Virus record (IMG/VR): IMGVR_UViG_3300033149_001697
Span: 1-39,780 of that record
Strand: one strand, 5' to 3'
From: a virus
DNA: 39,780 nucleotides
The translations under genes were made by a program, and so were the position numbers. Under the pieces are notes generated by a model. That model did not search any database. It saw only the letters and a list, made by a program, of their open reading frames with translations, and had not been told where the DNA came from. Positions 1,748 through 23,921 of the stretch are shown here, one piece after another (the stretch's first letter is position 1; every line of letters begins with the position of its first letter).

Positions 1748-1930
1748 ATGGCAAGGGAAAAAAGGCAAGGAAACAAAATCAATTTCTTTGTGCTTCTGCA
1801 TAGGGTTGAAAGAAAATTTGGGCACAAACAATCACGCTGGTGCGATGAGGATTTTCGGCAGTGGGATAAAATTTCGGAGAAGTATGATTTGGATTATGAC
1901 ACAGGGATTGAAGAAAGGGGGTCAAAATGA
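1748..1930 (+). CDS. Hypothetical early phage protein, 60 residues
   Basis: A small basic protein starting MAREKRQGNKINFFVLLH, with a Trp/acid-rich C-terminal half (SRWCDEDFRQWDKISEKYDL). I chose ATG 1748 because GGGGGTCA (1733-1740) lies upstream, although the spacing (about 7 bases after the motif) is longer than for sister genes. ATG 1721 in the same frame would add nine Lys/Gly-rich residues and be nearly leaderless from promoter B. It overlaps the next gene by 4 bases (ATGA). Its last codons are the next gene's ribosome-binding site. No family recognised. Confidence 0.6.
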   Translation: MAREKRQGNKINFFVLLHRVERKFGHKQSRWCDEDFRQWDKISEKYDLDYDTGIEERGSK

Positions 1931-2274
1931 AAAAGTGTGAAGTATGCGGTGCGGAGCTGGAAGTAGTAGAAACAAACGTGAACGCAGACGGGACGGGCGT
2001 GTATTACGCCTGCCCGAAGTTTATGGCCGGCGACGATGAGCATACTGCGTATCTCGAGGAACACGAAGGCGAAGACGGGTATGACCACGATGTCCGCGAA
2101 GGCACGATGGAAGATGGCGTGGGATATGATATGGATGGGAAACCGGTTTTCTATCTCGACGGAGAAGAACATACTTTTTCTACGGGACATACTCACGCCA
2201 CTGAAACCGAAGAATACGAAAATGTGAACGGGGTCATCGTGCGGTTGAGCGACGGCAAAAGAATAGATTGGTAG
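1927..2274 (+). CDS. Zinc-ribbon-like acidic protein
   Basis: A 115-residue acidic protein. An N-terminal CEVCG (C4, C7) followed by a single Cys near residue 29 (YYACPKF) suggests half or all of a zinc-ribbon fold. The middle is rich in Glu, Asp and His, and the C-terminus (VNGVIVRLSDGKRIDW) looks like a small beta element. The start is fixed by GGGGGTCA at 1917-1924, three bases before ATG. Function unknown; early, probably an intracellular binding protein or host-takeover factor. Confidence 0.65.
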   Translation: MKKCEVCGAELEVVETNVNADGTGVYYACPKFMAGDDEHTAYLEEHEGEDGYDHDVREGTMEDGVGYDMDGKPVFYLDGEEHTFSTGHTHATETEEYENVNGVIVRLSDGKRIDW

Positions 2275-2312
2275 ATGCAAAGGAACGGGAGAGATTAAGA
2301 AAGGGGGTCAAA

Positions 2313-3314
2313 ATGAAGGCAAGGACAAACTGGAAGGAAATGGTAGGCGTGCTGAAAGCGGGAGTGCCGGTTGAGGAAGTGAAAGCGGCATACGGTGTCA
2401 GGCAGTGTGATGTTAACTGGTGGAGCAAGAAGTATAAAGACGCTCCGGCGCTGTCAAGGGTTGCGGCGGCGACGATTGTTGAGCGCAAGAAAAAAGCACA
2501 GGCAGGGCAGACAGAAGTTATCGTAGTGGACAGCGGAAAGAAAACAGAAGTAAAAAAAAGCGGGAACACTTTCAAATCATTAACAAAAAGTCAGCGGAAA
2601 GTTTTTGATTTTCTCGGAAAGGTCGGCAATGAAACGGCGGTGCTGGTTAAAGGTGAAGCTGGACTGGGCAAGACGGAGCTTGTCAGGCAGTTTGCGGAAA
2701 GCAAAGGCAAGCGCATTGTAAGCTGGAATATGAACGGAACGGTTGATGTGGCTGACTTGCTGGGGCATTATATTTCACAGAACGGCTCTACAAGCTGGGT
2801 GTATGGCGTAGTTTCGCACGCTGTAAAGAACGGGCTGTGGCTGTGCTTGGATGAGATAAATGCGCCGGAAGCGAATGTGCTGTTTTCAATTCACGGGCTT
2901 CTGGATGACAGGAAAACGGTAATTCTGTCAGACCATAATGAGGTAATAGAGGCGCACCCGGATTTTAGATTTTTCGCTACCTGCAATGAAGGTTATCTGG
3001 GAACACGGGAGTTTAACAAGGCGTTTCTGTCAAGGTTTAATGCGGTAGTTAAACTTGACTATCCTGAAATGGAGGAAGAGGTAAAAATCATTTCAGACAT
3101 TCAGCCAGACGAAAGTAAAACGAAAATCATTGCGCAGATGTTGGCGGAAATGCGCAAAGCAAATTTAGCAATGCCGCTGGGTATAAGAGAGAGCAAAAGC
3201 TGGGCGTATCTTTCGCTGAAAATGGAACTGAAAGAGGCGTTCGAATTTGCTATTGAGAATAAAGCGGGAGATATTGATTTATCGGAATACAAGGGTTTGT
3301 ATTTCAAAAAATAA
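2313..3314 (+). CDS. MoxR/CobS-type AAA+ ATPase
   Basis: A 333-residue protein. An N-terminal helix-turn-helix-like segment (about 10-40, LKAGVPVEEVKAAYGV) and a Lys-rich linker precede a MoxR-type AAA+ core: Walker A GEAGLGKT at 114-121, Walker B LWLCLDEIN near 175-183, sensor-1 FFATCN near 220-225, and an SRF arginine-finger segment near 240-242. MoxR ATPases act with VWA-domain partners to remodel or insert metals into other proteins, and the VWA partner is the next gene, 10 bases downstream. Phage copies are often labelled CobS because of similarity to cobaltochelatase, but no cobalamin gene is present. The start is fixed by GGGGGTCA at 2303-2310. Confidence 0.88.
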   Translation: MKARTNWKEMVGVLKAGVPVEEVKAAYGVRQCDVNWWSKKYKDAPALSRVAAATIVERKKKAQAGQTEVIVVDSGKKTEVKKSGNTFKSLTKSQRKVFDFLGKVGNETAVLVKGEAGLGKTELVRQFAESKGKRIVSWNMNGTVDVADLLGHYISQNGSTSWVYGVVSHAVKNGLWLCLDEINAPEANVLFSIHGLLDDRKTVILSDHNEVIEAHPDFRFFATCNEGYLGTREFNKAFLSRFNAVVKLDYPEMEEEVKIISDIQPDESKTKIIAQMLAEMRKANLAMPLGIRESKSWAYLSLKMELKEAFEFAIENKAGDIDLSEYKGLYFKK

Positions 3315-3324
3315 GGGGGTCAAA

Positions 3325-5124
3325 ATGCAGTTGATGTCGTCAAATGATTATGCTACTTTACGAGGGCAGATAGAGAAAATGCTTATTCAGCATAATTTGA
3401 GAAAATGTGTTGATATGGGAAACATCGTCGGGGAAGGTGATTTGAAGGTGCTGGTTGCGCCGGTATCGACATCGTTTGCGGATTTGAAAAAACGGAAAAT
3501 AGTCATAGGCAGTGACGCTGTTGGAGTTTCACTGAAAAAAATGGTTGCTCATATACTTCACGAAGCAGGTCATATACGCTATACAAAACTGACTATTGAA
3601 AGGGCGATGAAAATCATAAAAGACACTGTGCAACCGAAAACAAATTTGAATTGGATACAGGACTGGGCAAATGTTATCGAGGACGCTCGGATAGAATACA
3701 AATTGTCAAAGCGATATCCGAACGGGCGGGCGCTTCTTAACATAAGAGATTTGTCACAAGCGGATAAGGCGTCGGAAAAAGTGCCTAAATCGGTCAGGGA
3801 TTTGGTTAAGTTTTTCAAATTGTTGACGGCTGTGCCGACAAAAGACGGGGCGGAAGTGCTGGCGGAAGTGCCGGAGGCATATAAAAAGGTATATAAGAAA
3901 AACATAAATCAATTTATTAAATCATTGGAGCACACACAGTGGAAGCACATAAAAGAGACAGCCGGCTTCTATAAAGACATTATGGACGTCTTTGATAAGC
4001 AGGTTAAAAAAGCAGAGGAACAGGCACAGAAGGAAGCGGAACAGAAAAAACAGGAAGCAGAAAAATCAGCAGAAAACAAAGAGGATGAAGAAAGCAAAGA
4101 GAATGGACAGGACACTTCTGACGGCAAAGATAAAGACAGTGGAAAGAAAAAAGAAAAAGAAGGTAATGAAAACAAAGGTGACAGGGAGCGGCAGGAAAGT
4201 CAAGAGCAGAAGGAAAGCACGGCAGAAACAGAAGAAGGCGCAAGCGAGAAAGGCGAGGAGCAAGAAGATAATGAAGACGGGAAAGGGTCAGGCGCAAGCA
4301 ATGGGAAAGGCGAAGATGACAGTAAAGATATAGAGTTTGCTCATCCTGTCGGGCGGCTGTCGTCAAAAGTAAGGGAAGTTATAAAACAGTCAGAAAAAAT
4401 TACGGATGAAGTGCTGGAAACACTTAACAGGCAGGAAGCGGAAATCAAGCGGCAGGAAACGCAGATAAAATCAGTAATTCAGCAGTTATTACAGGAATTG
4501 CAACCGGACGTGAAAAGAAACAGAGAGAGAGGAAAGATAGACACGAATAAGCTGTGGAAAGCGGGTATAAAAAAAGATGACTTCTTTAAGGCGGCTGGAA
4601 GGGAATTCCCGGAAACAGATATAATCGTAATGTCTGATATTAGCGGTTCAACACGGAATGGTAATATATTTTCGGTAATATCAAAAGCGACACAGAGCTT
4701 GATGGAAGCATTTGACAAGTTTGAAAAAATAAAATCGATGGCGCTGTTTTTCAACGGCAATAGTTATGTCGGAAAAACATTCAGACAGAAGGGCGTGAAA
4801 TTTCCTGTCGGGGCGTCGGGCGGAACTAATTTTGATAGAGTTATTTTTCACGCAGATAAAATGCTGAAAAAAGAAGGTAGAGGCAAAAAAGAATTTATGC
4901 TTATGATAACAGATGGACTGGATAATCTTTCAAAAGCAATAAAAAAACTTGCTGAACAGCATAATCTCTATGCAATAATTATTTCGTCATCTGCGACGGC
5001 ATCGACGGCATATATTAAACGTATAGCTGAAGAAAACTTCGGAAAGAACTTCTGTGTAATAGGCGGCATATCGGAACTGGGCGGCGCTATTGCAGCGGCG
5101 TTCAAAACTTTTATCAGGGGGTAA
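3325..5124 (+). CDS. CobT-like protein: HExxH metallopeptidase-like plus VWA domain
   Basis: A 599-residue protein. Residues 71-130 hold a gluzincin-like zinc site, H79-E80-A-G-H83 with NVIEDARIE near 117-124 as likely third ligand. Residues about 220-345 form a long, low-complexity Glu/Lys/Gln/Ser linker. The C-terminal VWA domain has the MIDAS motif D438-I-S-G-S, a GGTNFD loop and ITDGLDN. The layout matches phage and bacterial CobT/DUF2201-like partners of MoxR ATPases, whose natural substrate in phages is unknown. Its pairing with the ATPase just upstream implies a two-component remodelling or processing machine. The start is fixed by GGGGGTCA at 3315-3322; the longer in-frame extension back to 3247 overlaps the ATPase gene and is rejected. 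Confidence 0.85.
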   Translation: MQLMSSNDYATLRGQIEKMLIQHNLRKCVDMGNIVGEGDLKVLVAPVSTSFADLKKRKIVIGSDAVGVSLKKMVAHILHEAGHIRYTKLTIERAMKIIKDTVQPKTNLNWIQDWANVIEDARIEYKLSKRYPNGRALLNIRDLSQADKASEKVPKSVRDLVKFFKLLTAVPTKDGAEVLAEVPEAYKKVYKKNINQFIKSLEHTQWKHIKETAGFYKDIMDVFDKQVKKAEEQAQKEAEQKKQEAEKSAENKEDEESKENGQDTSDGKDKDSGKKKEKEGNENKGDRERQESQEQKESTAETEEGASEKGEEQEDNEDGKGSGASNGKGEDDSKDIEFAHPVGRLSSKVREVIKQSEKITDEVLETLNRQEAEIKRQETQIKSVIQQLLQELQPDVKRNRERGKIDTNKLWKAGIKKDDFFKAAGREFPETDIIVMSDISGSTRNGNIFSVISKATQSLMEAFDKFEKIKSMALFFNGNSYVGKTFRQKGVKFPVGASGGTNFDRVIFHADKMLKKEGRGKKEFMLMITDGLDNLSKAIKKLAEQHNLYAIIISSSATASTAYIKRIAEENFGKNFCVIGGISELGGAIAAAFKTFIRG

Positions 5125-5126
5125 TT

Positions 5127-5270
5127 ATGGCAAAATGTATGGAATGCGGGCGGGAAGTAAAAAAACTTATTGCGGTCAATCCGCAATGGTTAGTTTGTAG
5201 GAAGTGCTACAAAAAATATGTGGCACAGAACGGGAAAGGGGGTCACAGTGAGGATAAAAGAAAAAAATAA
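5127..5270 (+). CDS. 47-residue four-cysteine zinc-finger protein
   Basis: A short gene with a clear treble-clef or ribbon pattern: C4-x2-C7 (MAKCMECGRE) and C24-x2-C27 (VCRKCYKKY). ATG 5127 follows CAGGGGG at 5115-5121. Its 3' end overlaps the start of the next gene (GTG 5248) by 23 bases, and the next gene's GGGGGTCA signal lies within it. It is likely a nucleic-acid or protein-binding zinc peptide. Confidence 0.7.
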   Translation: MAKCMECGREVKKLIAVNPQWLVCRKCYKKYVAQNGKGGHSEDKRKK

Positions 5271-5751
5271 AGCGGCGGCATTATCTTTTGATGATTTAGT
5301 AGAACTGAATAAGCACAGATATAGATACACAATATCACAGAAAGATTTTAAGCTGGTCAGCGGACTGATTGCAAGAATAGAAAATCGGGACTGGGAAAAA
5401 GTTGCGGCTGGCGATGTCATCAGTTTATCGGCGCTGAAATCAGACAGGACTTATGAAAGGGGTCACATAGAAAAAATTGATTGCGGCAGTTGCGGGCACG
5501 GATGGGAAAGCGGAACAGCTTACTGTTGCACAGAGCCGTATGTGCCGTTTGTGCATAAGACGAACGGCGGAGTATATTTCAATACTTCGGGCGGCTACTG
5601 GGTTCTGCTGGACAGAAGCAAATTTTTGCGCATAGACATTCAGCGGAAACTGTTTACGACATTCGAGGGACGGTTGCCGTGTGCGGACGGGGCAGTTTAT
5701 TTCTGGGCTAATGTGGTGCGCTGGCAATATGCGGGTAAGGAAATTTATTAA
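5248..5751 (+). CDS. Conserved hypothetical early protein (weakly DUF4121-like)
   Basis: A 167-residue protein starting at GTG 5248, chosen because GGGGGTCA at 5238-5245 precedes it. It contains an internal CGSCG (CxxC) and several aromatic-rich strands, including NTSGGYW and a C-terminal VYFWANVVRWQY. The SGG-W pattern and the FWANVVRWQY end weakly recall DUF4121 proteins of mobile elements, which lack a known function. This link is from memory and unsure. It lies between a zinc peptide and a Cas4-like nuclease in the early operon. Confidence 0.5.
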   Translation: MRIKEKNKAAALSFDDLVELNKHRYRYTISQKDFKLVSGLIARIENRDWEKVAAGDVISLSALKSDRTYERGHIEKIDCGSCGHGWESGTAYCCTEPYVPFVHKTNGGVYFNTSGGYWVLLDRSKFLRIDIQRKLFTTFEGRLPCADGAVYFWANVVRWQYAGKEIY

Positions 5752-5762
5752 AGGGGGTCAGG

Positions 5763-6470
5763 ATGTTTAATTTATCAGCAGTAAAAGCGGCGGAAAATTC
5801 AAAGCGGTATGTGACGAATAAAATTCACGTTTCGGAATTGGCTTCTCACGATTGCGACAGGTATCTGTGGCTGACGCATAGCGGGCAGTATAGCTGGATA
5901 CCAGATGAGAATATACTGTGGGCGTTTCTGGTCGGCAAGGGTATTCACAGCGAACTTGAAAAAGAATGTTTGGCGTGGGCAGAGCAGAACGGCGCTATCG
6001 GGTTTTCGGAAGTAAAAGTCGAGACGGATAATATGATAGGCAGTATTGATTTGGTGATAGTGTATGAAAGAAAAAAAACTATCGATATTATTGACATCAA
6101 ATCAACGGGAGCGGAAGGTTTTTTTCTACTCCCGTCGGAGAGTATGATAAATCAGGTCAATATCTATGTCGGGGCACTGCTGGCGGGGGGGTTTAAGGCG
6201 TTGAAAAACATAAAGGTGACGAAGGACTGGAATATAGGAGGGCAGATTTGGAAGGTTAACAAGACAGGAAGACCGAGATATTTTGATGTGGAGCAGGACG
6301 CACATCCTATACAGATAGATTTGGACATATACAGAAACGCAGAAAAACGGGCGGAAAAAATTTCGTCGGCATTGAAGGGGGGTTATGAAATCAAAAAAGA
6401 AGACGGGCAGAAATGTGCGGGATGTCCGGCACGGCTGGTTTGCGAAGGGTTGAAAAGTATTGAAATTTGA
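5763..6470 (+). CDS. Cas4/RecB-like PD-(D/E)XK nuclease with Fe-S cysteines
   Basis: A 235-residue protein. Visible motifs are a first Cys C31 in DCDRYLW, H62 in GKGIHSELEK, D96 in GSIDLV, D111-I-K113-S in the core strand, a QVNIY helix near 130, and a C-terminal cluster C218-x2-C221-x5-C227. One N-terminal plus three C-terminal cysteines are the signature of Cas4/AddB-type Fe-S nucleases. Such phage enzymes process DNA ends for recombination and are not evidence of CRISPR. The gene after next is a probable recombination protein. The start follows GGGGGTCA (5753-5760). Confidence 0.85.
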   Translation: MFNLSAVKAAENSKRYVTNKIHVSELASHDCDRYLWLTHSGQYSWIPDENILWAFLVGKGIHSELEKECLAWAEQNGAIGFSEVKVETDNMIGSIDLVIVYERKKTIDIIDIKSTGAEGFFLLPSESMINQVNIYVGALLAGGFKALKNIKVTKDWNIGGQIWKVNKTGRPRYFDVEQDAHPIQIDLDIYRNAEKRAEKISSALKGGYEIKKEDGQKCAGCPARLVCEGLKSIEI

Positions 6471-6481
6471 AGGGGGGTCAA

Positions 6482-6697
6482 ATGGCAAAGGCAAGGAAAT
6501 TTTTCAGTAAAAGAAAAGGGCTTCACATCGAAGCGGAAGGTTGTGTCATAAATATCTATGAGAAAATTTATGACAGGCAGGGCAGGGAAGTCACGGTGGT
6601 GCAGATAATCCCGGACAAATACAGCGGTGAGAGAAAGTGGAAGCTTATAGGCACAAATGTTGTGCGTGTAGTGCGGCTGAAAACAGTAAAATGTTAA
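6482..6697 (+). CDS. Hypothetical early protein, 71 residues
   Basis: A basic, beta-rich small protein (MAKARKFFSKRKGLHIEA...). ATG 6482 directly follows GGGGGTCA at 6473-6480, so the longer frame from 6467 is rejected. It lies between the Cas4-like nuclease and the probable recombination protein, and may assist DNA binding given its charge. No family recognised. Confidence 0.65.
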   Translation: MAKARKFFSKRKGLHIEAEGCVINIYEKIYDRQGREVTVVQIIPDKYSGERKWKLIGTNVVRVVRLKTVKC

Positions 6698-6711
6698 GGG
6701 GGTGAAAAAAA

Positions 6712-7593
6712 ATGGCAAGGAAAAAGAATGACGGTGCGGGCACTGGTGAGATTATGAGGAGAACAAGCAAGAATGCAGAGCTGACAGCCTTCAAAAGATT
6801 GCTTGATTTGCAGGGGCAGAAGCGTATCCTGCTGGAAAACTACATTATAAAACATCTGAAACAGGGCGTTGACTTCGGCAGGATAGAGGGAACAACGAAA
6901 TCCGGCAAGACCTTCAAGAGCGAAAAGCCGAGTTTGTTCAAAGCAGGAGCGGAGAAGGTGCTTAACAGAACGAATGTTCAGGCGGTGCTTAAAAAAGATG
7001 TGGACACTTGGGAGATGACAGGAAACAAGCCGGGCGTCGTCTGCTATATTTGCGAACTGTTTACGCAGGACGGAATAAAAATAGGCGAAGGACGGGGTGC
7101 GGCGGATATCCGGGAAATCCGTTTCGGCGGCTCGTTCAATAACTGCATAAAGATAGCGGAGAAGCGGGCAAGGGTTGACGCTGTGCTATCTACTTATGCT
7201 CTGTCGGACAGGTTCACACAGGACTTAAATGATGAAGATGAGCGGCAGGTCTCAAAAGCAGGCAAATTATCATCGCAGAATAGCACAGGCGGCAATAATC
7301 GGGCAAAGGTCGGGGACTTGGGACGGCAGAGAGCAAATGCTCAAAAAGAGGCAAATACGGGCGCAAAACGGCAGATATTCAGGATAGGCGGCAATGATAT
7401 GACACGGGCGCAGTTTGAGGAACACTTGCGAAAGCTGGCGGCGGATGTGAACTTTGAGATAAAAGAAGCTGTGCAGACGATTTTCGGCAAAAATAGAATG
7501 GAAGACCTTTCGGGAAATCAAATGCTGGCGCTTTTTAACACAATTCAAAACAGGATACGGAAACAGGCGGCGGAAAGAGAGAATAATTTATAA
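6712..7593 (+). CDS. Conserved phage protein, probable recombination or ssDNA-annealing factor
   Basis: A 293-residue protein. The N-terminal 170 residues match a phage family I know by pattern: a short helix, then DFGRIEGT, PSLFKAGAEKV, a strand pair ending GEGRGAA, and the helix NNCIKIAEKRARVDAVLS followed by SDRFTQDLND. These proteins usually sit next to Cas4-like nucleases and replication initiators and are suspected recombination mediators, though the biochemical role is unproven. The C-terminal 120 residues are a polar linker and a helical tail (ARAQFEEHLRKLAADVNFEI region). The ribosome-binding site is GGGGGTGA (6700-6707), a one-base variant of the early motif. Confidence 0.6.
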   Translation: MARKKNDGAGTGEIMRRTSKNAELTAFKRLLDLQGQKRILLENYIIKHLKQGVDFGRIEGTTKSGKTFKSEKPSLFKAGAEKVLNRTNVQAVLKKDVDTWEMTGNKPGVVCYICELFTQDGIKIGEGRGAADIREIRFGGSFNNCIKIAEKRARVDAVLSTYALSDRFTQDLNDEDERQVSKAGKLSSQNSTGGNNRAKVGDLGRQRANAQKEANTGAKRQIFRIGGNDMTRAQFEEHLRKLAADVNFEIKEAVQTIFGKNRMEDLSGNQMLALFNTIQNRIRKQAAERENNL

Positions 7594-7606
7594 GGGGGTA
7601 TTTATT

Positions 7607-7963
7607 ATGGAAGCGCTGAAAGAAAAAATCAAACGGCTGATTAAATTGTTAAAAAAGAAGAAAGAAATTGCAGATGAGGAAAAACAGGTAAGAGCTGACA
7701 TTCTGGGACTTATGGAAAAAAACAAACTGGGGTCGGTGAAAGTCAAAGATTTGGGTGTAGAAGCGAAAATGATAATTTCAGAGCGCTTTGAATATGATTT
7801 GCGGGCTATCATAGAGACGCTGGAACTTGACTTCATTGTGGATAAAGGCATTGTAAAATGTGATACACGGGTCTGCAATAGAGAACTGAAAGGACACCCG
7901 GACATTGATAGTTTGAGAGTGAAAGCGGCGGAAAGAAAAACGGTGCGGTTGGTGAAGATGTAA
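7607..7963 (+). CDS. Coiled-coil early protein, 118 residues
   Basis: The first 45 residues are a very Lys/Glu-rich helix (EKIKRLIKLLKKKKEIADEE). The rest has alternating hydrophobics typical of a small alpha/beta domain, with two cysteines near residues 85-91. AAGGGGG at 7592-7598 serves as ribosome-binding site. The pattern loosely recalls siphovirus Gp157-like proteins, but not strongly enough to call it. It is followed by the tandem hairpins at 7965-8021. Confidence 0.55.
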   Translation: MEALKEKIKRLIKLLKKKKEIADEEKQVRADILGLMEKNKLGSVKVKDLGVEAKMIISERFEYDLRAIIETLELDFIVDKGIVKCDTRVCNRELKGHPDIDSLRVKAAERKTVRLVKM

Positions 7964-7964
7964 T

Positions 7965-7988
7965 CCTGCGGGCTGACCCCCACGCAGG
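7965..7988 (+). promoter_or_regulatory. Hairpin displaying complement of the early ribosome-binding site
   Basis: CCTGCG (7965-7970) pairs with CGCAGG (7983-7988). The 12-base loop contains TGACCCCC (7974-7981), the exact reverse complement of GGGGGTCA found before nine early genes. In RNA the loop would be free to pair with those sites in cis or trans. The next gene (8042) uses a different ribosome-binding site. Function is inferred only. Confidence 0.5.
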
Positions 7989-7991
7989 TGA

Positions 7992-8021
7992 GCGGGGCAG
8001 GGGAGAAATCCCTTGCCCCGC
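7992..8021 (+). promoter_or_regulatory. 13-bp hairpin with GAAA tetraloop
   Basis: GCGGGGCA plus GGGGA pair with TCCCT plus TGCCCCGC (one G-U pair) around a GAAA loop at 8005-8008. A GNRA loop on a long GC stem is very stable. No U-tract follows, so it is not a classic terminator. It could protect or end an RNA that includes the preceding hairpin, or control access to the GAGGGAGGGG site just before ATG 8042. Confidence 0.6.
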
Positions 8022-8041
8022 AAGAGGGAGGGGTAAATAAA

Positions 8042-8260
8042 ATGGAAAAACAGCGGGATACAGTTTTGAGAATAGTGAAAAGATTAAGTCCGGTGCGGAC
8101 GGAAGTAATAAAGATACTCGCAATGCGGCGGGGTGTAAGCTGTGCGGACAGATACTTGCGCTGGTTGCAGGACGACGGAGAAGTCACGGGATACACGAAA
8201 TCGGGAGACAGAACGAAAACTTGGTATTATATCGGGCGGCGTATGGGGGGTCAGCAATGA
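8042..8260 (+). CDS. Small winged-helix-like protein
   Basis: A 72-residue basic protein. The helix order (TVLRIVKRL, TEVIKILAMRRG, CADRYLRWLQDDGEV) followed by a beta wing (VTGYTKSGDRTKTWYYIG) looks like a winged-helix DNA-binding domain. ATG 8042 follows GAGGGAGGGG (8024-8033); the frame extends to 7988 but that part would be encoded by the hairpins. It overlaps the initiator-like gene by 4 bases, so it may regulate or assist replication. Confidence 0.6.
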   Translation: MEKQRDTVLRIVKRLSPVRTEVIKILAMRRGVSCADRYLRWLQDDGEVTGYTKSGDRTKTWYYIGRRMGGQQ

Positions 8261-8964
8261 AAAGATTTACGGACTGTGATAAGTGGCGTAAAGAATGGTG
8301 GCAGAATTTATCACCAAGCGGAAAACTATTGTGGTATTATATCACGGAGAACTGTAATGTGGCGGGCGTCTGGGAAGTCAATTTTCGGCTGGCAGAGTTT
8401 CAGATAAACGCAAAAATAAACAAAGAGGAAATTCAGAGGCAGTTTCAAAAACAGATTATTGTGCTGGCGGGCGGGACGAAATGGTTTATTAGAAACTTCG
8501 TCAAGTTTCAATATGGAAAAGATATTGATAATCTCAACGAAAATGTAGGCGTGGATAGAGCGATAAAAAGAATTGTCGAGAAGGAACTTGCGGGGGTGGA
8601 TTTGAATAATCCGGCGCAGGGGTTATTGCTCGAAATAATGCCGGATGGACAGAAGAAGCGGCGCAAGAAACTTACTGGCGATGTCGTGGCAATGGCAAAA
8701 GAAATAACAGAACTTAATAATGAGATGTTTATAACGACGTGGCAGGACTGGATTGTTTACAGGCGGGAACTGGGAAAAAAGATAACTCCGTCAACGGCAC
8801 GGAGGCAGTTAAAGAAATTGGCAAGCTGGGGCATAGACAATGCTGTCAAGAGTATTCAGCGGTCGATAGAGAAGGGCTGGACGGGGCTATTCGAAATCAA
8901 AGATGTTTGTGGCAGAAAAAAGTTGTCGGATTTATTAGATAAGGGGGTTGACGATGAAATCTAA
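8257..8964 (+). CDS. Replisome-organiser-like replication initiator
   Basis: A 235-residue protein. The N-terminal half (FTDCDKWRKEWW, SPSGKLLWYYITENCNVAGVWE, WFIRNFVKFQYG) matches the winged-helix N-terminal domain of phage replisome organisers and DnaD-like initiators. The C-terminal 80 residues (WQDWIVYRRELGKK ... KSIQRSIEKGWTGLFEI) match the helical domain often found with it. Such proteins bind the phage origin and recruit the host helicase loader. As no helicase, primase or polymerase is encoded, host DnaB and Pol III would be used. ATG 8257 follows GGGGGTCA at 8246-8253. Confidence 0.75.
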   Translation: MKRFTDCDKWRKEWWQNLSPSGKLLWYYITENCNVAGVWEVNFRLAEFQINAKINKEEIQRQFQKQIIVLAGGTKWFIRNFVKFQYGKDIDNLNENVGVDRAIKRIVEKELAGVDLNNPAQGLLLEIMPDGQKKRRKKLTGDVVAMAKEITELNNEMFITTWQDWIVYRRELGKKITPSTARRQLKKLASWGIDNAVKSIQRSIEKGWTGLFEIKDVCGRKKLSDLLDKGVDDEI

Positions 8965-9403
8965 AACGATTGACAGGGGATTTGATTTGTTGGAAAAAAA
9001 TTTCAGGACAAGCTATCCGGCATTGTTGCGGTTAAAAGTATGGGAACATATAAAAAAGAGTTTACCGAAAACTTTTACGGACAAAATGTTTGAGGATATT
9101 GTGGATGGATTTTTGAAAATGGAATACCCGCCGAAATATGCGGATTTTATGACGGCGCTGAAAGAGAAGGTGGGCAACGGGGTGACGGCGGAATATAATG
9201 AAATAATGTGTTCAAACTGTGGGAGAAGTTTTACGCCGGAAAATGAATATCAGGCAGAGATAGAATGGTGTGGAGCGTGTATAAAATGGAGAGAAACGCC
9301 GGAAGGCAAGGAAATAATGCGGCGGCGGGTGGCAGAGCTTAAAATAAAATTGCGGGAAAGTTTGAAAAATTTTTCTATGCGCCGGCAAGGGGGGGCAGAA
9401 TGA
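8954..9403 (+). CDS. Putative replication accessory protein with zinc ribbon
   Basis: A 149-residue protein. The N-terminal about 75 residues form a helical domain ending YPPKYADFMTALKEKV, reminiscent of helicase-loader/G39P-type proteins that sit next to phage initiators. The second half holds C-x2-C (MCSNCGRSF) and C-x2-C (EWCGACIKW), a zinc ribbon. It overlaps the initiator by 11 bases. ATG 8954 is chosen because AAGGGGG lies six bases upstream; TTG 8948 would begin inside that signal. The loader role is inferred from position and faint similarity. Confidence 0.55.
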   Translation: MKSKTIDRGFDLLEKNFRTSYPALLRLKVWEHIKKSLPKTFTDKMFEDIVDGFLKMEYPPKYADFMTALKEKVGNGVTAEYNEIMCSNCGRSFTPENEYQAEIEWCGACIKWRETPEGKEIMRRRVAELKIKLRESLKNFSMRRQGGAE

Positions 9404-9669
9404 AATTTGCGATTGAAGCTTTTGGTATTCGGGATGGAGAAACATTCGGAATTCAATTCGCTGGGACTGGCAAAGAACTTGGACAGGCAGTTGAAGAATT
9501 ACAGGGTGAAATTGACGCTTGGGATAGGTGTGCACGATGTGGAGCAATTTTACATTCAGAGGATTTTCACAGAGAAAGTCAGATAGCTGATACATCGGTA
9601 ATGGCGGCAGTAGAGACATTGGCGCTGGGATATACTTGCCCGCATTGCGGATTTTCGGAGGGTGCATAG
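9400..9669 (+). CDS. Two-CxxC zinc-ribbon protein
   Basis: An 89-residue protein with CARCG near residue 45 and CPHCG near residue 82, spaced as in a zinc ribbon with an inserted helix. It begins with a short beta-type segment (KFAIEAFGIRDGETFGIQ). It overlaps the preceding gene by 4 bases, so is likely co-translated with the replication accessory protein. Function unknown. Confidence 0.6.
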   Translation: MKFAIEAFGIRDGETFGIQFAGTGKELGQAVEELQGEIDAWDRCARCGAILHSEDFHRESQIADTSVMAAVETLALGYTCPHCGFSEGA

Positions 9670-11978: not shown

Positions 11979-12581
11979 GTGAAAATTCAAAAAGTAAAAG
12001 TGAATGTATTAAAGGCGGCTGAATACAATCCGAGAAAATGGACGGAGGAAGAAGAAAAAAACTTAAAAGACAGTATTAAAAAATTCGGGCAGGTTGACCC
12101 GCTTGTGGTGAATAAGGCGAAGGGACGGGAGAATGTTGTTATCGGCGGACACTTCCGGCTGGCGGTGGCAAAGAAGATGGGACACAAAGAAATCTATGTG
12201 ACTTATGTGAATATCCCGGACATAAAAAAAGAGAAAGAATTGAATATCCGGCTCAATAAAAACACAGGTGAGTGGGACTTCGATTTATTAAAAAAATTCG
12301 AGGAAAGCGCATTGAAAGACATCGGCTTCGTTGACTTGGAACTGGGAGAGATTTTTTTTGACGCAAGCGCTTTCAAAAGACCTGATTTAGGCAAGGGTGA
12401 TGTTGCTGACGGCGATAGCGGCGGCAAAACAGTAGGCAACGAAAGATACTTCTATGTGGAATATTATGATGAAAAAGATAAAAAATTGTTTGAGAAATTA
12501 CAGAAGGCGCTGGGAAAAAATCTAAAAGGGCTTCACGAAATCAATAAGGACTATTTCAAAAAACTGGTGCTGGGTAAATGA
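11979..12581 (+). CDS. ParB-like domain protein 1
   Basis: A 200-residue protein. The ParB/sulfiredoxin-fold core is clear: EYNPRKW near 15-21, IKKFGQVDPLVV near 33-44, and IGGHFRLAVAKKMG near 55-68 (the usual GERR/GHRR position reads GGHFR). Next comes LNIRLNKNTGEWDFDLL, typical of phage ParB domains that are often fused to DNA methylases, here with no methylase. In phages and islands such domains act as nucleases or NTP-using enzymes, often beside PP-loop proteins (IbrB with IbrA). Start is GTG 11979 behind GGGAGGA. It overlaps the radical SAM gene by 4 bases. A chromosome-segregation role is unlikely as no ParA is present. Confidence 0.85.
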   Translation: MKIQKVKVNVLKAAEYNPRKWTEEEEKNLKDSIKKFGQVDPLVVNKAKGRENVVIGGHFRLAVAKKMGHKEIYVTYVNIPDIKKEKELNIRLNKNTGEWDFDLLKKFEESALKDIGFVDLELGEIFFDASAFKRPDLGKGDVADGDSGGKTVGNERYFYVEYYDEKDKKLFEKLQKALGKNLKGLHEINKDYFKKLVLGK

Positions 12582-13984
12582 TAAAAGATTTTCGTTTTCA
12601 GCGGCAGAATGTTTGTAGAGAATGTGCTTCTCTGGGATTGAACTGCTCAACGGGTAAAAAATGTGAAGTAATCAGGAAGCCGTTAAGACACTACGATGGA
12701 TTAAGAATAACGGCTGATGGATTTGACTGCGCATTGCCGGTGACGATAGACAGTCACAGCAGTTGCGCTTACGAATGTTTATACTGTTTCAGCGACAATA
12801 TATTGGGACACAATGCACGGAGAAAACTGGTAGGGCAGACTCCATTATCAATGCTGGAAGGCATTTTTTCAGGCGGCGGTGGGAAGCGGGGAGAACTATT
12901 TAGAAAGGCGCTGAAATATGACAGGCGCAATGCGGCGGGGTTTCCGTCACCGGTGCAATTGGGGGGGCTTTCGGACAGTTTCGACAGCATAGAAGAAAAT
13001 CAGGGCTGGGCAATTAAATTTATGGAGCTGGCGATAAAATATAATCAGCCGGTAAGGATAAGCACAAAAGGCGTTTTATTTCTCATTGACGAATATCTGA
13101 ATGTAATGAAAAAAGCGCCGCATTTATTCTGGGTGGCATTCAGTATAATCAGTGATGACGATGAACTTATGAAACGGGTGGACAGGTTTGCGCCGTCACC
13201 TTCACTGCGGCTGAAAGCAATGAAGCGGCTGACTTCTATCGGTGTGAAAACAAGTTTAAGGTTGAGACCGATAATAAAGGGAATATCAGATAGGAATTGC
13301 GCTTATAAAACGCTGATAGCAAAGTCGGCGGACGCTGGCGCTGGGGCAGTAAGTTATGAAGTGGCTTTTTACCCGGCGGCTATCGGGAAAGAAAATGTGT
13401 GGAAGTGGAAACAGTTAGATGAAATCACGGGAATAAATATGCGGCGGCAGTATGAAGCATTCGGCAAGATTATGGCGTGTTCGAGACCAAGTTATTTATG
13501 GACGGAAAATATAATGCACAGCATAAAAGAGACAGCGCATAAATACGGTATGGTAGCGGGGGTGAGTGACCCGGTATGGAAACAGTTAACGGATGTCGGG
13601 TGCTGTTGCGGGATAAAACCTGATGATAAAGTATTCGGAAACTGGGAACGTGAGAACGCAACGAATATGATGTTGCTGGCGAAGCAGGGTAAAAAGAAGA
13701 TAATACGGCTAAAAGACATAACGCCGCCGTGGGCGTATGAGGCAAAAGCGGCAGGAATAATAAATCCCGGAGCAGGACCGAAGACAATGTGGAATCAGAA
13801 ACATCTGACTTGGGCGATGGTATTAAAAAAGAACTGGAATAACAGGGCGGCGCAGAGAAGCCCGGAGAACTATTTTCAGGGAGCTTGGAAAGCAGTGGGC
13901 AAAGACGACGAAGGAAACTTGACTTATAAATATGTGGGATTAAAGCGGCATTATAAGAATGCACGCTGGGGGATTTGTGATTAG
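12578..13984 (+). CDS. Radical SAM enzyme (SplB/COG1533-like)
   Basis: A 468-residue protein. The [4Fe-4S]-AdoMet motif is C63-x3-C67-x2-C70 (CAYECLYC). Upstream lie four more cysteines, C13, C16, C23 and C29, and downstream a C342-C343-C344 run, which could hold an auxiliary cluster or zinc. The barrel strands (VRISTKGVLFL, WVAFSIISDDDELMKRVD, TSLRLRPIIKGISD) resemble the SplB/photolyase-like family, which contains spore-photoproduct lyase and many uncharacterised enzymes. It is coupled to ParB 1 upstream (ATGA) and lies 11 bases before the PP-loop gene. Context suggests radical chemistry on a nucleobase or on a protein partner; the substrate is unknown. Confidence 0.85.
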   Translation: MIKDFRFQRQNVCRECASLGLNCSTGKKCEVIRKPLRHYDGLRITADGFDCALPVTIDSHSSCAYECLYCFSDNILGHNARRKLVGQTPLSMLEGIFSGGGGKRGELFRKALKYDRRNAAGFPSPVQLGGLSDSFDSIEENQGWAIKFMELAIKYNQPVRISTKGVLFLIDEYLNVMKKAPHLFWVAFSIISDDDELMKRVDRFAPSPSLRLKAMKRLTSIGVKTSLRLRPIIKGISDRNCAYKTLIAKSADAGAGAVSYEVAFYPAAIGKENVWKWKQLDEITGINMRRQYEAFGKIMACSRPSYLWTENIMHSIKETAHKYGMVAGVSDPVWKQLTDVGCCCGIKPDDKVFGNWERENATNMMLLAKQGKKKIIRLKDITPPWAYEAKAAGIINPGAGPKTMWNQKHLTWAMVLKKNWNNRAAQRSPENYFQGAWKAVGKDDEGNLTYKYVGLKRHYKNARWGICD

Positions 13985-13995
13985 AGGGGAGTTAA

Positions 13996-14736
13996 ATGGC
14001 GCAGTTGCGTGAACTTCTGGTAAAATCGTTAAAACGGCACAAAATCAAAGACGGTATAGAATTAGAATTCAGCGGCGGGTGTGACAGCACAAGCATTTTT
14101 CTGTGCTTGAAAAAAGATTTGAAAATAAAATTCAGGTGTCACATTTATTATCTGCGGGAGCGAGGAAATATGGATTTGTATAACAGCAGAGTGTTATGCA
14201 GACATTACGGCGTCAAGCTGGTGGAATATAAGCTGACAGAGGCACAGGTGCTCAAAAACATTGTGACGCTGAAAGCGGATGGCTACAAGGGCAAGGTGCT
14301 TCTGCAATGTCTGGCGGGACATTTGCCGGTGGCAAGAGCGATGAAAAACAGGACGGTGCTTAATGCTTCATTCGCAGACGCTTTATACGGCGTTTACAAA
14401 TCGATATATATGACTGGCGGATACAAGAACAAAAAACAGTTTGATATTATGCGCAAGAAGGCATTATACAATGAGGACGCTGATGGCACGGTGTCTTTAA
14501 GCAAATTGTTTGCGAAGACGGGAAACAAAGTGGTATATCCTTACTGGGACAAAAAAATCATAGAGTATTTTTTGAGGTTCGATTATCATAAGCTTAACAG
14601 TCCGAGGAAGAAAAAATTTTTTTATGAGGATTTTGAAATGGATATTCCGAAGGCGGCAAAACCGAAAAGAATTTCACAGCAGATAGCAAGCGGTGTCAAG
14701 GAATTTCTGGCGGGGCAGAACATAAGTTATAGATGA
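13996..14736 (+). CDS. PP-loop ATPase (asparagine-synthase/ATP-pyrophosphatase fold)
   Basis: A 246-residue protein. The ATP pyrophosphate loop is S26-G-G-C-D-S31 in IELEFSGGCDSTSIF. The remaining sequence (NASFADALYGVYKS, VVYPYWDKKIIEYFLRF, PRKKKFFYED) resembles the C-terminal synthetase domain of asparagine-synthase-like enzymes. It lacks the N-terminal glutaminase, so it is not a full asparagine synthetase. PP-loop enzymes adenylate a carbonyl or phosphate for attack by an amine or sulfur, as needed in base modification. It overlaps ParB 2 by 4 bases. GGGGAG precedes ATG 13996. Confidence 0.75.
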   Translation: MAQLRELLVKSLKRHKIKDGIELEFSGGCDSTSIFLCLKKDLKIKFRCHIYYLRERGNMDLYNSRVLCRHYGVKLVEYKLTEAQVLKNIVTLKADGYKGKVLLQCLAGHLPVARAMKNRTVLNASFADALYGVYKSIYMTGGYKNKKQFDIMRKKALYNEDADGTVSLSKLFAKTGNKVVYPYWDKKIIEYFLRFDYHKLNSPRKKKFFYEDFEMDIPKAAKPKRISQQIASGVKEFLAGQNISYR

Positions 14737-15335
14737 AGTGGAGAACTGAACAGCGCAAAATAAGTGAGCTGAAACTACTGAAAGAAAATCCGAGAATATT
14801 GACAGAAGCGCAACGGGCGGAGCTGGAGAAGTCATTAAAAAAATTCAATCTGGCTGAAATCCCAGTAATTGACAGAGACAACGTGGTGCTGGCTGGAAAT
14901 CAGAGAGTAGCAGTATTAAAAGCACTGGGACGGAATAAAGAGACAATAGATGTCAGAATTGCTGACAGAAAGCTCACAAAAGCTGAAAAACGGGAATATA
15001 CCCTGCGTTCTAATAGAAACACTGGCGAGTGGGATTTTGAGAGTTTAGCGGCATTCGGCAAAGATTTACTGGAAGGCGTTGGTTTCACTGAAAAAGAGCT
15101 TGCGAAAATATACAAAATCGGGACTTCGGAAGGCAAGGGAGAGTTGGAGTTTACGGAGGAACTTTTAGAGGAGCGCAATTTCGTCGTCTTCATATTTGAC
15201 AATTCTATTGACTGGCTGAATTTCAAAAGCAATTTTGAGTTGAAAAGAAAAAAGATGGTTCACCATAAAACGAAAATTAAAACGGGTGTGGGAAGGGTAA
15301 TCGACGGCAAGATATTACTGGCAAAGCTGAAATGA
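14733..15335 (+). CDS. ParB-like domain protein 2
   Basis: A 200-residue protein, exactly the length of ParB 1. Motifs: KENPRIL near 17-23, LKKFNLAEIPVI near 35-46, LAGNQRVAVLKALG near 53-66, then YTLRSNRNTGEWDFESL. The GNQR and GGHFR variants at the catalytic position differ between the two copies, so they may have distinct substrates or one may be structural. The C-terminal part (FVVFIFDNSIDWLNF) differs from that of ParB 1 although both read as small alpha/beta tails. It overlaps the genes on both sides by 4 bases, placing it in the same coupled operon. Confidence 0.85.
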   Translation: MKWRTEQRKISELKLLKENPRILTEAQRAELEKSLKKFNLAEIPVIDRDNVVLAGNQRVAVLKALGRNKETIDVRIADRKLTKAEKREYTLRSNRNTGEWDFESLAAFGKDLLEGVGFTEKELAKIYKIGTSEGKGELEFTEELLEERNFVVFIFDNSIDWLNFKSNFELKRKKMVHHKTKIKTGVGRVIDGKILLAKLK

Positions 15336-22571: not shown

Positions 22572-23921
22572 ATGAGCGTGATTAAGATGTCTGACATACA
22601 GGTTGCGGCAAACTGGGCGGCATTGAAAATTGACGCAGAGAACGGCGGTAATGCAGACAGAGAACACATAACACACGGAAGCGCAAGACCTTTTTACGAA
22701 ATTATAAATGACGGAGCTTGGCAGGGGCGGCGATGTTTTATCATAGGCGGCGGTTCGAGCTTGCGGGATTTTGACTGGTCTCTGCTTGATGGCGAGCTGA
22801 CAATCGGTATAAACAAAGCACTGGAAAAAATAGAGCCGACAATTATGCTGTCGATGGACAGTAGATTTTATGACTGGCTCATAAATGGTGAACTAGGTGA
22901 GGAACTAAAACGGAAATTCGAGAATTACAAGGGATATAAGGTCTGGCTGAATACGATAAATCATAACTTCGGAGAGGATGTTTATTTGATAGACAGCGCC
23001 GGAGAGAAGGCGCTGACAAAATCACTTCACGACGGGTTGGGGCACGGAAGCAATAGCGGATATGTAGCGCTGAATTTGGCAATGGTGCTGGGAGCAAACC
23101 CTATTTATCTGCTGGGGTTTGATATGAAGGGGGACGGGCAGGGAAAACAGAGCTGGTGGCACGGGGGATATCCGGTAAATCAGGGTGAGAAAGTTTTTAA
23201 TAGAATGACTGAATGCTTTGAAGCGGCGGCTGATGAAATAGCGGCACGGGGGTTTCGTGTCATAAATATGAATGAAGACAGCGGGCTGAAATGTTTTGAG
23301 TTTTCGGACACTATACTGAAAAACGAAATGCCGTTGATAATCTCATATTACACGAAAAAATCTATTTATGAATATCAGGTGCGGTTTTTGAAGGAAAGTT
23401 TGGACAGGTTATTTTTGAGTTATGATATTCAGGAAATAAAAGACAGAGGAAGCTGGGCGGCGAATACATATTACAAAGCGGAATTTATAGCTGAAATGCT
23501 GGAAAAACACAGGGGCAGGGATTTACTCTGGGTGGACGCTGACGCTGTGATGTGGAAGACGCCGGAAATGTTTAGAAATTATGACGGGGACTTGGGTGTA
23601 TTTTATTACAGGGGCAGTTTATCAAACGGCACGATTTATTTGAAAAATAACGAAGCGGTCAGGGGGATTGTCGGGGACTGGGTTAAAGAGAATAATAAGA
23701 ACGAAAAAAAAACGGTCTGGGAGCAGTTTAATTTTCAGAGAGTCGTGGAGCGGAACGCAGGGAATATAATGGTGAAGATACTGCCGAAAAATTACTGCTA
23801 CATTGAAGGGCTTATGCAGGGCGTTCACGGGGCGGTGATTGAGCATTTTCAGGCAAGCAGAATTTTACGGGGAAGATATTTGAAGCCGGAGGTAAAAGAT
23901 GGCATTAGACACGACGAATAG
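22572..23921 (+). CDS. MptE-like domain fused to GT-A glycosyltransferase
   Basis: A 449-residue protein. The first 250 residues (CFIIGGGSSLRDFDWSLLDG with GGGSS at 59-63, TIGINKAL, MLSMDSRFYDW, GHGSNSGYVALNLAMVLGA, YLLGFDMKG) match the MptE/DUF115-like Rossmann-type domain found in motility-accessory and phage proteins. From about 255 a second domain begins (MPLIISYYTKKSIYEYQVRF), with a metal-binding D322-A-D324 in LLWVDADAVMW and a nucleotide-sugar transferase layout. It sits between capsid and head-tail connector genes, so it may glycosylate a virion or cell-surface protein, or work with the modification operon. Its ribosome-binding site is weak. It overlaps the next gene by 23 bases. Confidence 0.7.
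   Translation: MSVIKMSDIQVAANWAALKIDAENGGNADREHITHGSARPFYEIINDGAWQGRRCFIIGGGSSLRDFDWSLLDGELTIGINKALEKIEPTIMLSMDSRFYDWLINGELGEELKRKFENYKGYKVWLNTINHNFGEDVYLIDSAGEKALTKSLHDGLGHGSNSGYVALNLAMVLGANPIYLLGFDMKGDGQGKQSWWHGGYPVNQGEKVFNRMTECFEAAADEIAARGFRVINMNEDSGLKCFEFSDTILKNEMPLIISYYTKKSIYEYQVRFLKESLDRLFLSYDIQEIKDRGSWAANTYYKAEFIAEMLEKHRGRDLLWVDADAVMWKTPEMFRNYDGDLGVFYYRGSLSNGTIYLKNNEAVRGIVGDWVKENNKNEKKTVWEQFNFQRVVERNAGNIMVKILPKNYCYIEGLMQGVHGAVIEHFQASRILRGRYLKPEVKDGIRHDE

Follow-up and report, generated by a model that had tools for sequence, protein, structure and literature searches.

Dosage control of replication genes by long-range mRNA folding is classic in RNA phages and in some plasmids. In phage MS2, mRNA structure couples translation of the replicase to that of the coat protein (Berkhout and van Duin 1985, as cited and modelled in PMC9894550), and in the I-complex plasmids repZ is controlled via a pseudoknot and the antisense RNAI (Asano and Mizobuchi 1998, as cited in PMC10724649). 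ATGA overlaps between genes are a general substrate for translational coupling (PMC6728339, PMC12548453).

Here we analysed a virus record of 39,780 bases (this whole stretch of DNA is the window referred to below). We propose, with a probability of about 0.52, that a C-rich strand in a non-coding gap of the early operon is the 5' half of a long-range duplex, formed in cis, which would sequester the Shine-Dalgarno sequence (SD) of a replication initiator gene and tie initiator output to translation of the small gene orf72. The locus would then be like MS2 in that folding of the mRNA keeps a downstream replication gene shut until the gene ahead of it is translated, an arrangement that is known in MS2 and predicted here.

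The early operon and its longest non-coding gap

Matches in PHROGs to terminase, minor head and tape-measure genes identify the virus as a tailed phage. The 62 genes of the set, which was called with a simple custom script (some late starts are doubtful, early starts are clear), all lie on the + strand, and this strand is strongly purine-skewed (G 11124 vs C 6093; GC skew ~0.3). The early operon spans 1748-9669 and its SDs are G-runs, mostly AAGGGGGTCA. More specifically, the genes at 1748-9669 carry a special SD, mostly AAGGGGGT(CA) with a TCA extension, and the SDs of the later genes (9730-39780) are mostly AGGAGG-type or weaker. The + strand carries nine copies of the motif GGGGGTCA, which precede early genes, and the - strand carries one, at 7974-7981 (expectation for both strands combined, 0.8).

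Several other features of the window were recorded. The second strongest hairpin of the window (TTTTTGCAGGGG...CCCCTGCAAAAA, 25-nt loop), at 923-975, sits between the end of the lysis-side genes and the early promoter region and resembles a bidirectional terminator. Among the packaging and structural genes, 12578-13984 and 22572-23921 hold a radical-SAM protein and a phage 'sialyltransferase' family match, and two ParB-like/methyltransferase-associated proteins of one family are encoded in this same small phage genome, at 11979-12581 and 14733-15335.

The features of the locus are as follows.

7607-7963, + strand: orf118, the upstream gene; its stop TAA (7961-7963) lies 9 nt before the anti-SD strand
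7964-8041, + strand: non-coding GC-rich gap of 78 nt, from orf118 to orf72, the longest intergenic gap of the early operon up to orf151
7965-7988, + strand: hairpin H1, 6 bp with a 12-nt loop, predicted by folding to be transient
7972-7985, + strand: putative anti-SD strand GCTGACCCCCACGC, 5' arm of the duplex predicted by folding
7992-8021, + strand: hairpin H2, a perfect 13-bp stem with a 4-nt loop, -28.5 kcal/mol, the strongest hairpin of the window
8028-8034, + strand: SD of orf72 (GAGGGGT), alternative partner of the anti-SD strand in the folding
8042-8260, + strand: orf72, a small alpha/beta protein gene enclosed by the predicted duplex; start ATG at 8042, stop overlapping the next start (ATGA)
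8239-8255, + strand: 3' arm of the predicted duplex, GCGT-ATG-GGGGGTCAGC, which holds the orf235 SD and the last orf72 codons
8257-8964, + strand: orf235, a RepO-like replication initiator; N-terminal RepO-like domain in common with phage Pan5, C-terminal phrog_678 match

The initial annotation had described a 6-bp hairpin in a 78-base gap, and both descriptions hold: the gap runs from the orf118 stop to the ATG of orf72, and the stem is formed by CCTGCG (7965-7970) and CGCAGG (7983-7988) around the loop GGCTGACCCCCA (7971-7982). The 8-mer TGACCCCC, at 7974-7981 within this loop, is the sole copy on the + strand, as had been noted. Its chance expectation had been put at 0.6, a figure that ignored the strand bias; a first-order Markov model gives 0.0047 on the + strand. 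CCCCC likewise occurs once on the + strand in 39.8 kb, and this single occurrence is the one used in the predicted duplex. H2 and the extension of the complementarity (10+4 bp) to the SD of the initiator gene had been omitted from the earlier description.

The initiator gene orf235 is the next gene but one after orf118. The latter has only a weak family match, to phrog_434, and a structure model of the orf72 protein (pLDDT 71.5) gave no significant match when compared with known folds.

Other roles for the gap were considered and set aside. H2 was rejected as an intrinsic terminator, since it has no T-run and is followed by AAGAGGGAGGGG. GTG at 7988 was rejected as the start of orf72 because it has no visible SD, whereas ATG 8042 has one. 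Readthrough of the orf118 stop codon into orf72 was also examined: the frame stays open after the TAA at 7961, but an open run of 26 codons is nothing unusual, and the stretch joining the two genes in frame scores -0.078, below the genes. An Rfam 15 search for a riboswitch or cis-regulatory family returned none at the gathering score (best 18.4 bits vs a cut-off of 51). Consensus scans, which are weak tools, gave no + strand terminator-like site at 7964-8041, only one weak promoter-like match (7769-7798), and no convincing - strand promoter plus terminator over the gap.

Predicted pairing of the gap with the initiator start site

When the 12-nt loop was compared with every called gene start, the best partner was that of orf235 (-24.1 kcal/mol), 265 bases downstream on the same mRNA. 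The match extends beyond the 8-mer: GCTGACCCCC at 7972-7981 is exactly complementary over 10 nt to GGGGGTCAGC at 8246-8255, and four further pairs join ACGC (7982-7985) with GCGT (8239-8242) across a 3-nt bulge. Thus, 7972-7985 (GCUGACCCCCACGC) can pair in cis with 8239-8255 (GCGU[AUG]GGGGGUCAGC) through 14 bp, 10 of them contiguous. These sequences, their complementarity, the gene order and the ATGA overlap are read directly from the DNA, and the pairing probabilities below are computed from it.

In a fold of 7950-8300, the 14-bp duplex is the minimum-energy state, with P ~0.97 per core pair. The 10 core pairs keep a mean P of 0.98-0.99 in every context folded from 7955-8262 to 7500-8760 (up to 1.26 kb) and at 25-45 C, values that come from nested folding, which takes no account of translation, kinetics, pseudoknots or a kissing form with H1 intact. 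The initiator AUG (8257) comes directly after the duplex; in the predicted fold its SD is covered, with an unpaired fraction of 0.11 in all contexts holding both arms.

H1 itself behaves differently in short and long transcripts. Alone, it folds with P ~0.95, and with the same P in transcripts ending at 7992 or 8025; its minimum-energy form gains two G-C pairs, which use up part of the loop. In full contexts holding both arms its P falls below 0.001, the loop strand being taken by the long-range duplex, whereas H2 keeps a P of 0.99 in all contexts folded. H1 would persist (P 0.95) only while no more than the first 40-70 nt of the leader exists, probably as a short-lived form presenting the strand. 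The core 10 bp falls inside the H1 loop, so that on paper the loop could contact the SD; such a contact would hide the SD and not activate it.

Is this complementarity more than a coincidence? A GC-rich gap with a C-run would readily match SDs that are G-runs, and its real role could be another one (such as mRNA stability via H2, a very stable stem in its own right) or none. The shuffling controls bear on this in both directions. In 17.5% of gap shuffles there is some 8-mer complementary to a start region of the early genes, but in just 0.6% is such a complement held within a hairpin loop. Similarly, gap-only shuffles attain the duplex energy in 46 of 2000 cases (2.3%), but the perfect 10-nt run in only 4 of 2000; this control is the harsher one, because the C content of the gap is itself the oddity, and the only CCCCC of the + strand lies here. 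Shuffling the 280 nt upstream attained the duplex energy once in 1000 trials. Across the 62 genes, with each start site set against the 40-320 nt upstream of it, the duplex is the strongest (-28.4 kcal/mol, z -5.7; next -18.6) and contains the only perfect 10-bp run, and the whole domain is more stable than 100 of 100 shuffles (z -3.05). On the other hand, a relative, G001, has two copies of TGACCCCC, both within coding genes and in the absence of GGGGGTCA sites. Weighing these points, we regard a chance origin as rather unlikely. The cost of opening the orf235 SD (7.7 kcal/mol) is only the fourth highest of the 62 genes; therefore, hidden SDs are not rare in this phage, and it is the distance and exactness of the pairing that are.

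For the predicted duplex, the gene layout supplies a possible way of opening. The position of orf72 inside the closed loop, together with a stop codon that overlaps the initiator AUG (ATGA), suggests that orf72 and orf235 are translationally coupled. In the proposed mechanism, there would be no free initiation at the initiator AUG while the duplex is closed. Ribosomes on orf72 would melt the duplex on reaching its 3' arm in the final codons (8239-8255); after terminating at the ATGA overlap they would restart on the initiator, which would be made mainly while orf72 is translated. While the strand is held by the initiator SD, the orf72 SD would be free; once displaced by orf72 ribosomes, the strand may fall back on the orf72 SD and limit orf72 translation, providing feedback. 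Duplex formation in the cell, repression, coupling and feedback are predictions from one genome.

Possible pairing with a second start site, and the trans-acting alternative

In transcripts ending before the initiator SD, the C-rich strand is predicted to pair with the orf72 SD instead (P 0.53-0.90), and the short leader adopts this pairing with -42.7 kcal/mol and a z of -3.6. One reading of this is that orf72 is the main target, its SD being occluded locally by the strand, and that the match to the initiator simply follows as both SDs are G-runs. The pairing with orf72, however, has 5 core pairs and 3 others, whereas the initiator offers 14; the orf72 pairing is lost once the initiator SD is present, and the two main forms of the leader differ by only ~1 kcal/mol. 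Control of orf72 as the main function thus seems quite improbable.

Both pairings may instead occur in sequence. The predicted free fraction of the orf72 SD rises from 0.30 before the initiator SD is transcribed to 0.82 after it, and it is possible that the strand covers the orf72 SD until the initiator site is transcribed. Taken further, the one C-rich strand could act as a two-position shutter common to the start sites of orf72 and the initiator. On the nascent mRNA the strand would hide the orf72 SD; when the initiator site is transcribed it would move there, so that orf72 opens and the initiator closes, and ribosomes on orf72 would push it back. We consider this extension unlikely, although, if true, the mRNA's own translation would set initiator dosage, making the locus a timer and rate limiter built from RNA alone.

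The initial annotation had proposed a cis or trans antisense switch that silences early translation. What survives of this is the cover of one start in cis (14 bp, P 0.99, in silico); the general and the trans forms were not supported. In such a scheme, all early genes that carry GGGGGTCA would be shut down by an antisense RNA seeded by the H1 loop, acting in trans or generally in cis. Pairing of the loop is indeed stronger at early start sites (mean -16.9 kcal/mol) than at others (mean -8.9 kcal/mol), but this contrast arises because the early genes share an SD motif, and the other GGGGGTCA sites match only 8-9 nt exactly. Moreover, the consensus scan gave no terminator-like site at which a separate small RNA could end, H2 being without a T-run. 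The strongest partner of the segment lies in cis, on the same mRNA, and once the full mRNA is folded the strand is no longer free. A general antisense RNA is accordingly very unlikely in our estimation, and we retain the cis duplex on the initiator SD as the preferred reading.

Relatives and comparison with known systems

Scans with the orf235, orf118, AAA ATPase and TerL proteins found no close relatives, and the exact DNA pattern of the gap was found in no relative. A capsid protein search retrieved L100 (G001), L101 (G002) and L102 (G003), 76-78% identical. The structural genes of G001-G003 match those of the window; their early regions differ and are not homologous at this locus. In the stretches of these three genomes that were read, neither GGGGGTCA nor a version of the locus was found, and no match to orf118 was found in them. 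SDs in G001 and G003 are often AGGGGGAA-like.

The RepO homologue of G001 (residues 2-109, 43% identity) lacks a visible SD and is preceded by a leader ORF of 35 aa, again with ATGA at its end; its leader RNA is unusually structured (z -3.74). This layout speaks for the proposed mechanism. The G003 initiator has a different N-terminus and overlaps a small upstream ORF, with no unusual structure seen before it, which speaks against the mechanism. From these two layouts, initiators that overlap a small ORF ahead of them are a recurrent feature of the group. The more distant RepO-domain homologues (L004-L099, ~28-45% identity) are without orf72, orf118 and orf293, and among 79 such loci no comparable duplex was supported; the only strong upstream duplex, at L031, was rejected because the locus's own fold gives it no support (z +1.57).

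Further observations concern the leaders of these relatives. Ahead of G001 RepO (L104 18250-18105, - strand) there is a consensus-like promoter, TTGACA-17-TAAAAT, followed after only ~10 nt by a start codon that is possibly leaderless, together with the 35-aa ORF and a strong stem-loop formed between GGGGGAAGG and CCTTCCCCC. Separately, G001 and G003 share, in otherwise diverged DNA, a near-identical structured leader of ~80 nt (GGGGGCGTAATAATGGCAGGCGTATGCCTTTTAGCCAATGGTCTGCCCG[C/T]CCCC...AAGGAGGTAGTGAGATG), located ahead of two dissimilar small ORFs (L104 ~18649-18567, - strand; L106 ~9020-9100, + strand). It has no Rfam match, is absent from the window and is a candidate new phage leader RNA.

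Among the known systems, MS2 is close in layout: in the prediction the downstream start site is buried in mRNA structure, and the arm of the blocking duplex at 8239-8255 lies within the last codons of orf72 (8042-8260). MS2 has an RNA genome, whereas this is a DNA phage, and no sequence relation between the two elements is to be expected. The blocking strand of MS2 lies inside the coat gene; the one proposed for the phage is non-coding, in the gap that precedes the enclosed orf72, and is perhaps shared with the SD of orf72.

The repY-repZ system of the plasmids resembles the predicted lock in that long-range pairing within the mRNA of a replication initiator governs the initiator's translation. 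Initiator translation there is also set by translation of a small upstream ORF, and in the phage a small upstream ORF likewise overlaps the initiator start (the ATGA of orf72 and orf235). However, the plasmid pseudoknot activates and RNAI inhibits, whereas here the duplex itself would hide the SD, and the consensus scan, a weak tool, showed no convincing antisense gene over the gap. As in ordinary ATGA coupling, the orf72 stop and the orf235 start overlap by 4 nt; such coupling needs no long-range duplex, whereas the orf235 SD is predicted to stay closed unless orf72 is translated.

We found no description of such a lock in a tailed phage in the open-access literature. The locus suggests a search rule, namely to look on coding strands with a purine skew for rare C-runs that match an SD close by. 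Taken together, the principle is already known from these systems, and what differs here is a blocking strand in a non-coding gap and its possible sharing between two SDs. If true, a gap-encoded anti-SD lock, maybe toggling two SDs, would extend this form of dosage control to the operons of DNA phages.
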